Shown here piece by piece: positions 10,759 to 13,611 of a stretch of DNA of 64,000 bases. Position 1 is the first letter of the stretch, and the number at the start of each line of letters is the position of its first letter. A program made the position numbers and the translations under genes. Origin of the DNA: Synechococcus sp. UW179A (GTDB taxonomy: Bacteria; Cyanobacteriota; Cyanobacteriia; PCC-6307; Cyanobiaceae); contig NZ_UCNJ01000025.1 in the NCBI RefSeq assembly GCF_900473965.1, positions 124,001 through 188,000 of the forward strand, given 5' to 3'. Below the pieces are notes generated by a model that had not been told where the DNA came from, ran no database searches, and worked only from the letters and a program-made list of their open reading frames with translations.

Positions 10759-10902
10759 CCCTGTTATTTCCTGCCGAATGCTTATCTTGACGGCTATGTC
10801 TGAGACCGTCTAGACGGCCGGCCCCCAAACTGTCTTGTTGATCGACTGAACAGCCGGGTGCCGATGTCGTATGTTTCTCGGGTCGCATAGCGACACACGC
10901 CA

Positions 10903-10986
10903 GCGGATGTGGCGGAATTGGTAGACGCGCTAGTTTCAGGTACTAGTGGCAGCAATGTCGTGGGAGTTCAAGTCTCCCCATCCGCA
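10903..10986 (+). tRNA. tRNA-Leu (anticodon CAG)
   Basis: Acceptor GCGGATG pairs with CATCCGC, discriminator A at 10986. D-arm GGCGGAATTGGTAGACGC, anticodon arm CTAGT-TTCAGGT-ACTAG, long variable arm and T-loop AGTTCAAGTCT are clear. The AT-richer prochlorosin-like region begins directly after its 3' end, a common island position. Confidence 0.95.
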
Positions 10987-11619
10987 TCAAATCAGTTGAT
11001 ACAACTGGGTTCTTCGATAAGCTGAGCTTGTCGATGCACAGTGTGTGGCTGTTGACAATTGCAGGATAATGTGCATTGCTATTTATCACCCTTAATCAGA
11101 CTTCGTATCGTTAGTGATATCGACGGCTAGTCGTATCAGTGAGGCAAACTAACGAACAGTCTTGTGACAGTGGAGAAGAGTTAAAAGTTCATCAATCGTT
11201 GGCGTTGATTGAGTCTTGTCTGAGTCTTGTATCAGTCGCCACCGGTGGTGAGAATTGCCTGAGCGGGATCAAGTCGTGTGGCTCTCCAAAGCCACACAGA
11301 TACACGCGTGAAATAGAGGAGTGAGTATAAATGCTTAGTGCATAAATTATTCTGAGCCAGGCTGCGGCTGGTAAGTATTTATGCTTACTGTCCAGTGCCA
11401 AGCCCTGTCAGTAGCACTGGTTGTCATGACTAGTGAGCACCTATCCCCTTTGCTCAGCCCCAGCAGCCAGCCAGACCGCGTAGGGGGGCAACCAGGCGCT
11501 GCGTTATTGAGACATGGCCTGAGACATTTTTGTCATTTTTTATCGGGTTTAATATTGGCAACTACCCAATAATCGTGCCAGGTACTGAAGGCTGATTTGT
11601 GGGATTATTGGCGAGATTG
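10987..11619. other. AT-richer accessory stretch behind tRNA-Leu
   Basis: No firm gene. The plus-strand frame 11139-11324 contains SGEELKVHQS, later SVATGG followed by ENCLSGIKSCGSPKPH. This resembles the end of a Nif11-type leader with a double-Gly site and a Cys/Ser-bearing core, but the leader's N-terminal half is not recognisable and an 11-nt near-duplication (TGAGTCTTGTC) sits in the middle, so it is probably a relic or chance. No tRNA 3'-end duplicate was found by eye. Confidence 0.35.
11572..11606. repeat. Direct repeat copy A behind broken precursor gene
   Basis: Starts with ATCGTGCCAGGTAC (11572-11585), then an imperfectly shared GAAGGCTGATTTGTGGGA. The same block occurs at 11988-12022. 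On the minus strand each copy lies just downstream of a Nif11-leader precursor gene, so the repeat appears to belong to a duplicated precursor cassette. Confidence 0.75.
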
Positions 11620-11653
11620 AAAAAATAAAAAGCCCCTCTCAGTGCAGAGGCTT
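11620..11653 (-). terminator. Rho-independent terminator for the broken precursor gene
   Basis: On the minus strand a hairpin AGCCTCT-GCACTG-AGAGGGGCT is followed by TTTTTATTTTTT. It lies about 25 bp past the precursor's stop at 11676. Confidence 0.7.
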
Positions 11654-11675
11654 TGAGGGCAAAAGATTTCTATCG

Positions 11676-11915
11676 CTAGGGGCCTACGCAGCCGCCAGGT
11701 ACTTGAGACGCCGCGCTTCCTATGCACTCCCCGCCAGCCATGCCTTCTAGTTCCTCTTCACTGAGTTAAGTCACCTTATCAGCGGTGAATTCGTGGCCAT
11801 GCTCTTTAGCGATAGTCACGACATCTTCGGGTGACTTCACCGCTTTAAGTTTATCCTGAATGGACTGGTCGTCCTTAGCTTTGGCGAGGAATGCCTTGAG
11901 TTGCTCTAAGGTCAT
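11676..11915 (-). pseudogene. Nif11-leader (prochlorosin-like) peptide precursor with nonsense mutation
   Basis: The minus-strand frame starts MTLEQLKAFLAKAKDDQS, continues with KLKAVKSPEDVVTIAKEHGH and EFTADKVT, then hits TAA at 11766-11768. It resumes without frameshift as LSEEELEGMAGG and a putative core ECIGSAASQVPGGCVGP ending at TAG 11676-11678. The leader matches the LanM-substrate (ProcA) type: an N-terminal helix EQLKAFL, the LSEEELEGMAGG end, and a Gly-Gly cleavage site. The core has two Cys and two Ser, enough for lanthionine rings. The stop falls in the leader just before the part next to the cleavage site, so no core can be made unless it is read through. Close relative of the intact gene at 12051. 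Confidence 0.8.
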
Positions 11916-11987
11916 GGGTATCAGGTCTGTTTAGCAGTCATAGCAACGGTCTGCTGCAATGTCTTTGGCAAATAATTGACTGTTAAA

Positions 11988-12022
11988 ATCGTGCCAGGTA
12001 CCTAAGGCAATTTGCGGAATTT
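11988..12022. repeat. Direct repeat copy B behind intact precursor gene
   Basis: Contains the same 14-mer ATCGTGCCAGGTAC (11988-12001) and a similar AAGGCAATTTGCGGA tail as copy A, 416 bp away. A TTGGCAA element also precedes both copies. It lies about 30 bp past the stop of the precursor gene at 12051. Confidence 0.75.
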
Positions 12023-12050
12023 TCCAGAATGGACTTTCTGCTATCGTTAA

Positions 12051-12317
12051 TTACAGCTTGCATTCAAAGCAAAGACTTTCCTCATTGGTCTCGTTGCAGT
12101 TTCCAAATATAGAATTTCCATGTACTCCTCCAGCAATATTTTCAAGCTGTCTTTCTGAAACTTCTACTTTTTTGATGTCATCAGCGCTTATTGCGTGGCC
12201 GTGTTCTTTAGCGATGCCCACGACGTCTTCAGGTGACTTAGCTGCTTTTAGCTTGGCTTGAAGATTGGAATCACCTTTCACTTTTTCCAGGAACGCTTTA
12301 AGTTGCTCTTCTGACAT
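12051..12317 (-). CDS. Nif11-leader (prochlorosin-like) lanthipeptide precursor
   Basis: An 88-residue precursor, start chosen at MSEEQLKAFLEKV (an in-frame ATG seven codons upstream is possible). The leader has KGDSNLQAKLKAAKSPEDVV, IAKEHGHAISADDIKKVEV and SERQLENIAGG, typical of ProcA-type substrates of a promiscuous LanM enzyme in marine picocyanobacteria. The 24-residue core after Gly-Gly begins VHGNSIFGNCNE and ends ESLCFECKL, with three Cys and three Ser/Thr, so up to three thioether rings are possible. No LanM, protease or transporter is encoded in the window, so modification would depend on a distant enzyme. A decayed sister lies at 11676. Confidence 0.85.
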   Translation of the reverse strand: MSEEQLKAFLEKVKGDSNLQAKLKAAKSPEDVVGIAKEHGHAISADDIKKVEVSERQLENIAGGVHGNSIFGNCNETNEESLCFECKL

Positions 12318-13335
12318 TAGGAATGATTCAGGTGTCACATTCTAGCCAAGATTCAGAGACTTGTCGTATTCAAGTTCCACGTACAGTTCAGCATATAAAT
12401 ATAGACCTTATATGAGTCACCTATTGATAAGTCAATAATCAGCATTGGATCCTTTGATAATTGGAGCGTTAACGACAATTAGAGAAGGATCCTGGGGCGT
12501 TAGGTATATCAGTATGGTAGGCCTTGAGATCCCAGTAAAAATAACCCCAGAGGCCCCTTGTAGACGATTTAAAGGGCCTATTTGAGAGTTTTCAACGTAG
12601 GTTGGTGGGCTCTGTACATCCTGTAAAACGGGATGATTTATTACTCCGACTAACCAGAAGCTTCAGTGCTTCAAATTCAGGGATTCTCTCACCGATCAGG
12701 ACCTTCTCTCGATCACGAATAGGGAAATAAGGGATGTTATTGGCATACGCATTAAGACCACCTTCCCGTGGTCCACAAATATGGGAATACATTTAAATTA
12801 GACATTAGAATTATTAGTTACCCGTTTAGATGTTCTGACACTTCATGAATCGAACTTATGATGCATTTGAATCGTGATTTTTACATGCTAAATAAGCCGA
12901 TAAGCTCGATGCCTGAATAGGTAATTGACTTGAGTTTCTTGGCTGTTAGGTGCTGAAGTTTTTGGAGCAGTGGATGCGTGAATGGTGGTTGTGAAGCTGA
13001 ATGCTTCGCCTTCAGTGACTTGGCTTTTTTGGGGGTGTTGCCCCCTTGACTCCTTCAAGCTCACAGCCATTCTGCTGAACCCCGCTGCATAGCTTTGGTG
13101 CAGACCCCCAAGAGGTTCTGGTGAACTTCTGGTAATTGGCCCAGATCCCACACGGAGCCCAGGTTCAATTCATCCGCAAGCCGGTAACTCCAAGGTTTCG
13201 GGGCGCTGGATCTCTGGCCCGGGTCACAGGCTAGGCGCCACTGGAAGCCTTCCTTGTGTTGCATTGATGCCGCTGCTCACTGCGCTTAGCCCCCCAACGC
13301 GGCAATAGTTCAACCCTCTCCATCCGAACTATCTT
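12318..13335. other. AT-rich accessory stretch with doubtful small ORFs
   Basis: Besides the weak ORF at 12592-12792, two overlapping minus-strand ORFs (12888-13151; 13061-13264, with GFQWRLACDPGQRS) are open but have no recognised family and no clear ribosome site. I see no terminator or RNA gene here. Confidence 0.35.
12592..12792 (-). CDS. Small hypothetical protein, doubtful
   Basis: A 66-residue frame starting MYSHICGPREGGLNAYANN and containing YFPIRDREKVLIGERIPEF. The composition looks protein-like (charged helix, aromatic residues spread evenly), but there is no ribosome site I trust and no family I recognise. It lies about 275 bp upstream of the intact precursor gene on the same strand. 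It could equally be the end of a longer lost gene. Confidence 0.3.
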   Translation of the reverse strand: MYSHICGPREGGLNAYANNIPYFPIRDREKVLIGERIPEFEALKLLVSRSNKSSRFTGCTEPTNLR

Positions 13336-13362
13336 GTGCTCATAAGGCTTCAACCACTGCCC

Positions 13363-13611
13363 ATGATTGTTCTGAAGATCTCCAACTCATCAGAGGTTGT
13401 GGCGTCCAAGGTAGGAAAGTTTTTGGAAGCCCTCACTCCCGATAAGGTTGATCAGGCTGCTGTTGAAGACCAGGTCATCAAGAAGTTGGTGGAGAATCTT
13501 TCTGCCGAGGGCATCAAAGGAGAAATTGCGTCCGTTAACGGTGTCGATATCGCCGGAAGCGAGCTCAGCCTTCACGATGGTTTGAAAGTGCGGAAGCACA
13601 CCAGCTTCTGA
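13363..13611 (+). CDS. Small conserved-looking protein upstream of RNA methyltransferase
   Basis: An 82-residue cytoplasmic protein from ATG 13363 (a GTG nine codons upstream is the alternative). It begins MIVLKISNSSEVVASKVGKF and has alternating helix-forming stretches (VEDQVIKKLVENLSAEGIKG) and a beta-like tail (LSLHDGLKVRKHTSF). I do not recognise a named family. Its stop lies one base before the methyltransferase start, so both are likely translated from one mRNA. Confidence 0.7.
   Translation: MIVLKISNSSEVVASKVGKFLEALTPDKVDQAAVEDQVIKKLVENLSAEGIKGEIASVNGVDIAGSELSLHDGLKVRKHTSF

Follow-up and report, generated by a model that had tools for sequence, protein, structure and literature searches.

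Two precursor genes of the prochlorosin type, one intact and one interrupted by an in-frame stop codon, lie head-to-tail beside a tRNA-Leu (CAG) gene in the window, a 64,000-nucleotide stretch of one contig of Synechococcus sp. UW179A. The pair is likely to be a two-gene outpost of a huge recombining prochlorosin-type family, in which the intact gene is a mosaic and its neighbour has been shut by a nonsense mutation. We propose that a single LanM and a single C39-ABC exporter, both encoded elsewhere in the genome, would serve this family. Turnover would proceed by recombination among the near-identical leaders and the conserved spacer found behind each gene's terminator, so that leaders, cores and whole gene-terminator-spacer units could be swapped between loci, and point mutation would kill some of these units. 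The exchange through leaders and spacers could be due either to homologous recombination or to a site-specific system.

To our knowledge, it is still an open question for the prochlorosins how a single promiscuous enzyme has come to act on dozens of unrelated substrates. Two genomes of the genus carry about 100 or more precursors, among which living, dead, chimeric and core-less genes stand next to each other, and plain strain comparison could thereby measure how, and how fast, precursors are born and die. The spacer repeat may mark the unit of exchange, and it could also serve as a handle for locating precursors and dead copies overlooked by gene callers.

Two precursor genes at a variable tRNA-Leu site

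The two precursors are encoded on the minus strand, the complete gene upstream and the stop-cut gene downstream (Table 1). The first-pass annotation had described them as Nif11-leader precursors in head-to-tail order with a shared 14-mer, ATCGTGCCAGGTAC, at 11572-11585 and 11988-12001, and both the coordinates, with their spacing of 416 bp, and the leader-model matches of the two genes agree with that description. A scan of the window for the 14-mer with up to two mismatches gave three matches, a number reached in 0 of 100 shuffles. The TIGR03798 cut-off of 32.3 bits is exceeded by both genes, as is the cut-off of PF07862. The leader of the intact gene ends in QLENIAGG, a variant of the D/EELExxxGG type.

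Table 1. Features of the precursor site, with positions counted from the first base of the window.
Feature	Position	Strand	Basis
tRNA-Leu (CAG), edge of the variable site	10903-10986	+	RNA family search
Variable region carrying both precursors, 2.27 kb	10988-13254	.	comparison with eight relatives
Array-end copy of the conserved spacer block, with 14-mer 11572-11585 and no precursor right behind	11571-11628	-	block alignment; together with the 3' UTR 91% identical to C4:18023-18111
Intrinsic terminator of the killed gene	11629-11654	-	terminator prediction
Remainder of the killed gene: LSEEELEGMAGG, core ECIGSAASQVPGGCVGP (11679-11729), TAG 11676-11678	11676-11765	-	sequence
In-frame TAA, codon 50 of the killed gene, directly ahead of the LSEEELEG motif	11766-11768	-	sequence
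Leader ORF of the killed precursor, truncated to 49 aa, start at 11915 (MTLEQL...)	11766-11915	-	TIGR03798, 60.9 bits
5' region of the killed gene, beginning with 14-mer 11988-12001	11916-12001	-	side-by-side upstream regions; block alignment
Intact Nif11-leader (prochlorosin/SyncA-type) precursor	12051-12317	-	ORF (ATG start, MSEEQL...); TIGR03798, 86.3 bits
Intact gene: leader up to GG at 12126, then core VHGNSIFGNCNETNEESLCFECKL	within 12051-12317	-	ORF
Longer version of the intact ORF, GTG start	12051-12338	-	ORF
Region upstream of the intact gene, different from the block type; resembles the same place in G008	12339-12815	-	88.8% identity over 12194-12815

It had also been noted that a single TAA kills the downstream precursor and leaves its Gly-Gly site and core whole, and this reading holds, since the frame continues behind the TAA to the final TAG with the Gly-Gly and the Cys/Ser core undamaged. 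No other damage is found in the leader, which, the stop aside, is an average one for the family (97.1 bits, rank 61 of 116). Judged from its sequence, the killed gene is a unit of the typical kind, with a core not shared by others, that was shut by a nonsense mutation, and the stop would abolish its product. The 5' region of the killed gene contains a promoter-like AAGACA (11965-11960) separated by 17 bp from TATGAC (11942-11937); these hexamers were picked by eye, and the promoter scan did not list them.

The genome (G000) is a 3.06-Mb draft in 35 contigs, and the genus set comprises 31 genomes. The PF07862 profile has 128 matches in the genome, with 115 above its cut-off, and a full-leader model gives 116 matches at E <=0.001. 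At least 150 leader-model matches (150 scored of 296 candidates) are found in G008, a genome of 3.31 Mb in one contig that ranks as the nearest relative when judged by the neighbouring methyltransferase (91%). Examination of 123 of the PF07862 hits (the 128 minus four weak ones with E >=0.19 and C12:202399) yielded 82 full leaders that begin with Met and are free of stops, according to a strict end-motif pattern. This pattern misses real leaders with variant ends, including that of the window's intact gene, so the number 82 is a lower bound. The core of 78 of these 82 intact genes contains Cys plus Ser/Thr. It is noted that in one gene, L055 (C2:251550-251747, minus strand), the leader stops exactly at the Gly-Gly and no core follows.

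A search for a LanM (ProcM) gene returned a single one of the CCG type. The sole LANC_like match in the genome lies in this 1127-codon ORF (C25:301730-305110, about 114 kb past the window end), which matches TIGR03897 with an E of 2.8e-210 and has its CCG motif at residue 1011; a C39-peptidase ABC exporter is encoded nearby. The Nif11 leaders matching TIGR03798, the one CCG-type LanM and the C39 exporter together bear out the prochlorosin-type (SyncA) identity first given to the precursors, and by these sequence features the window genes are classed as prochlorosin/SyncA-type (Nif11-leader class II lanthipeptide) precursors. The likeness to the prochlorosins/SyncA with a ProcM-like LanM, known from marine Synechococcus and Prochlorococcus MIT9313, extends from the Nif11 leader with its D/EELExxxGG-type end and the hypervariable Cys-bearing core to the genomic arrangement, with many precursors scattered over the genome, one CCG-type LanM apart from most of them and a C39 exporter. 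The highest published precursor numbers, according to the accessible part of PMC10783134, are 83 and 79, compared to 82 by the strict pattern or 116 by the model in this genome and at least 150 in G008; the counting criteria differ from those of that source, and no like-for-like record is therefore claimed. The same part of PMC10783134 reports recombination-related genes near precursors. In this genome, a Pfam scan of seven array-side proteins, out of 79 listed ORFs, found no integrase near the arrays. One Y1_Tnp (IS200-like) transposase, L058 (C4:85887-86678), sits between precursors.

The tRNA-Leu locus is a variable site with precursor turnover. The distance from the tRNA-Leu to the next conserved stretch is only 0-322 bp in six of the eight relatives compared (G014, G030, G018, G026, G024 and G013), and in G008 and G009 the same interval measures 15.5 and 8.3 kb, respectively. 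At this site G008 also has two precursors, with the same upstream region and array-end block as in the window and with different cores. A scan of 10800-13400 for known RNA families at E <=1 detected the tRNA alone.

The intact gene is a mosaic

The nearest relatives of each segment of the two genes were compared within 40 stretches of this genome, seven stretches of G008 and 12 kb of G017. For the first 143 leader bases of the intact gene, the nearest relative in this genome is at C4:85163, with 90% identity. The leader tail, core and 3' UTR are about 90% identical to a gene of G017, and the upstream region matches G008 at the same chromosomal site. Considering that these segments match different sources, the intact gene is a recombinant. 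The homology with G017 ends inside the 14-mer. Recombination breakpoints also fall within leaders, which indicates that the spacer is not the sole exchange point.

The segments of the killed gene likewise point in different directions. The closest relative of its 5' region is in G017, that of its leader in G008 at 946335, and that of its 3' UTR together with the block at C4:18023; its core is near to nothing in the stretches compared.

Two further observations were made on precursors elsewhere in this genome. The same 36-residue core is found under two different leaders, at C2:252637-252834 and C12:360110-360307, as a core or leader swap could leave it. An identical leader and core occur in C17:76800-76997 and C19:1166-1363, both near contig ends, and could be a true copy or an assembly duplicate.

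A conserved spacer behind the genes

The exact 14-mer occurs three times in the genome, the third copy being at C4:17670-17683 between two other precursors. When TACCTGGCACGATT was searched with at most one mismatch, 67 sites were found in the genome, compared to two for a reversed control pattern. Of these near-copies, 40 precede a same-strand precursor by no more than 120 bp, with 34 of them 72 bp ahead of the start codon, and 58 are within 400 bp behind a leader. The flank is not a sequence that occurs widely without relation to precursors, since 62 of the 67 sites adjoin a precursor one way or the other. The first-pass annotation had taken the 14-mer as part of a 3' flanking block shared by the two window genes. 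It is indeed present behind both of them, but the block is a genome-wide spacer repeat, and the copy at 11988 also belongs to the 5' region of the killed gene.

The alignment, which covers 64 of the 67 sites, defines a conserved spacer that runs from the gene's terminator through TCAATACCTGGCACGATTGAGCGCAGT, after which the copies diverge by kind. Some continue into a shared promoter-like stretch with a start codon, some into a long upstream region of MTQEQL-type genes, and some mark array ends with no precursor near behind. By this alignment, the copy at 11988-12001 flanks the killed gene on its 5' side, and the one at 11572-11585 marks an array end.

The position of the spacer relative to the genes was counted for 85 precursors of this genome, limited to strict end-motif leaders and hence without the window's intact gene, after four of 89 genes near stretch edges were excluded. 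The spacer is only on the 3' side of 27 precursors, only on the 5' side of four, on both sides of 37 and on neither side of 17 (sign test, p 3e-5). The corresponding numbers for 53 precursors in the G008 stretches compared, with one of 54 near a stretch edge excluded, are 18, 8, 23 and 4 (p 0.08, which is weak alone). The count allows four mismatches in 20, a limit that is exceeded by the 5' copy of the killed gene, exact over 14 bases and yet scored as absent. The tendency of the spacer to keep to the 3' side of genes, newly observed here, suggests a cassette composed of gene, terminator and spacer.

It could be that the precursors travel as true cassettes of this kind, with the TCAATACCTGGCACGATTGA core as the exchange point and newcomers added at the end of an existing one. 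The first gene of an array would then have a private promoter region and the array end would carry an orphan spacer, and the window pair would represent an array of two cassettes at a stage between insertion and decay. We regard this reading as rather unlikely. The 17 precursors that have no spacer on either side also speak against the preferred reading of a family recombining through leaders and spacer. The arrangement resembles integron cassettes in that a gene is followed by a conserved 3' element, units form arrays and different genes occupy the same slot. Unlike in integron cassettes, the exchanges occur inside leaders too and the spacer does not show attC-like folding, with the block DNA folding no better than shuffles (z 0.0 to 0.3, three sequences). 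Considering also that there is no integrase among the few proteins scanned, the likeness to integrons is one of order only. The same lack of folding separates the spacer from REP/RAYT systems, to which it is otherwise similar as a short intergenic repeat in many copies, with one Y1_Tnp transposase located between precursors. Within the preferred reading of a recombining family, recombination may well act through the spacer in addition to the leaders.

No description of the spacer repeat was found in the prochlorosin/Nif11 literature as represented by titles and abstract openings, and the main evolutionary paper on the prochlorosins (PNAS 2017) may describe it. Neither the spacer repeat nor killed precursors are described in the accessible part of PMC10783134.

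Some copies of the spacer have a short palindrome (GGTGACGAC..GTCGCC type) just ahead of TACCTGGCACG that is reminiscent of a REP insertion. Such copies are at C4:97213, C4:98166 and C32:108605 in this genome and near 801900 in G008.

The killed core holds GTACCTGGC (window 11694-11702), a word of the spacer. An origin of cores from spacer sequence was considered and rejected. Although a 10-base word is common to the killed core and the spacer, nine or more bases are shared in merely three of 82 cores (shuffles: mean 0.46, up to 3 in 200), and one of these three is a long core that seemingly runs on into its own spacer.

Stopped leaders in the family

Stop codons interrupt nine of the 116 leader matches in this genome and eight of the 150 scored in G008. 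There are at least seven more among the matches listed for four other genomes (168 matches in all), and seven of 104 leaders in eight further genomes carry stops at a stricter threshold. The view that precursor birth and death are caught in progress is therefore sustained, with the window case being real but one of many in a constantly reshuffled family of about 100 genes. A killed gene of G008, at 1267596, shares its core with the intact C12:412356 of this genome, so that another broken gene has an intact counterpart.

The TAA in the window could in principle be a sequencing or assembly error, with both genes intact. The draft state of the assembly, in 35 contigs, would allow such an error, and so would the undamaged condition of the rest of the killed leader. 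However, the like stops in G008, which is a single contig, and in the other genomes make stops ordinary in this precursor family, and we consider an error highly unlikely.

The 31 genomes of the genus were compared in a search for an intact allele of the killed core (28 of 36 candidates scored in G008), and none was found. All non-self matches to the killed-gene query with E <0.001 stop no later than query base 67, within about six bases of the Gly-Gly codons. The matches over the core itself extend over at most 34 bases with E >=0.0065, and are short and at chance level. The strain comparison suggested at first to reveal the intact allele thus gave no core match beyond chance in the 31 genomes, and with the core found nowhere else the stop of the killed gene cannot be polarised. 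The killed leader is otherwise average; the "fresh" inactivation proposed earlier is plausible, and the killing stop may be recent.

That inactivation had been thought to follow a cassette duplication, but the present comparison speaks against this part of the claim. A simple tandem duplication of one cassette with subsequent loss of one copy would account for the head-to-tail order and for the common 14-mer 416 bp apart. It is very improbable in light of the comparison of the two window leaders, which are 71% identical over 130 nt and, among the stretches compared, rank no higher than 52nd and 58th in each other's lists of non-self hits. The two genes are therefore not each other's nearest relatives as tandem duplicates should be; their segments have closer relatives elsewhere, and the 14-mer is repeated genome-wide.

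The positions of the stops may not be evenly distributed. Seven of 23 stops, counted in 20 broken leaders of six genomes, are on the two codons before the LSEEELEG-type motif, where about 1.1-1.5 would be expected; in the codons of this genome's intact leaders these two positions account for 6% of the chances. The p value is 0.0003, or about 0.003 after scanning all positions, and 0.0001-0.0002 with leader types kept apart. G000 30606, G013 597803 and G013 1094481 were too decayed to be placed and were left out of the count, which also does not include the G000 match C32:154502-154615. Two of the seven hot-spot cases, with contexts 90% alike, may go back to a single event. In a second set of eight genomes, where eight stops in seven leaders were placed by eye, one case is clear and another ambiguous. 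The hot spot before the motif was found post hoc and is suggestive. If real, it would favour leader-only products or context-dependent mutation.

A programmed split, in which the stop yields a peptide of the leader only and re-initiation at the in-frame ATG within the GMAGG motif gives a core that is modified with the leader in trans, would be in keeping with this hot spot, with an ATG that starts 24 bases past the killed gene's stop codon and with the one other gene that ends exactly at the GG without a core, but given the post hoc nature of the hot spot, the possible common origin of two of its cases and the few recovered in the second set, it is scarcely credible as an explanation of the window pair.
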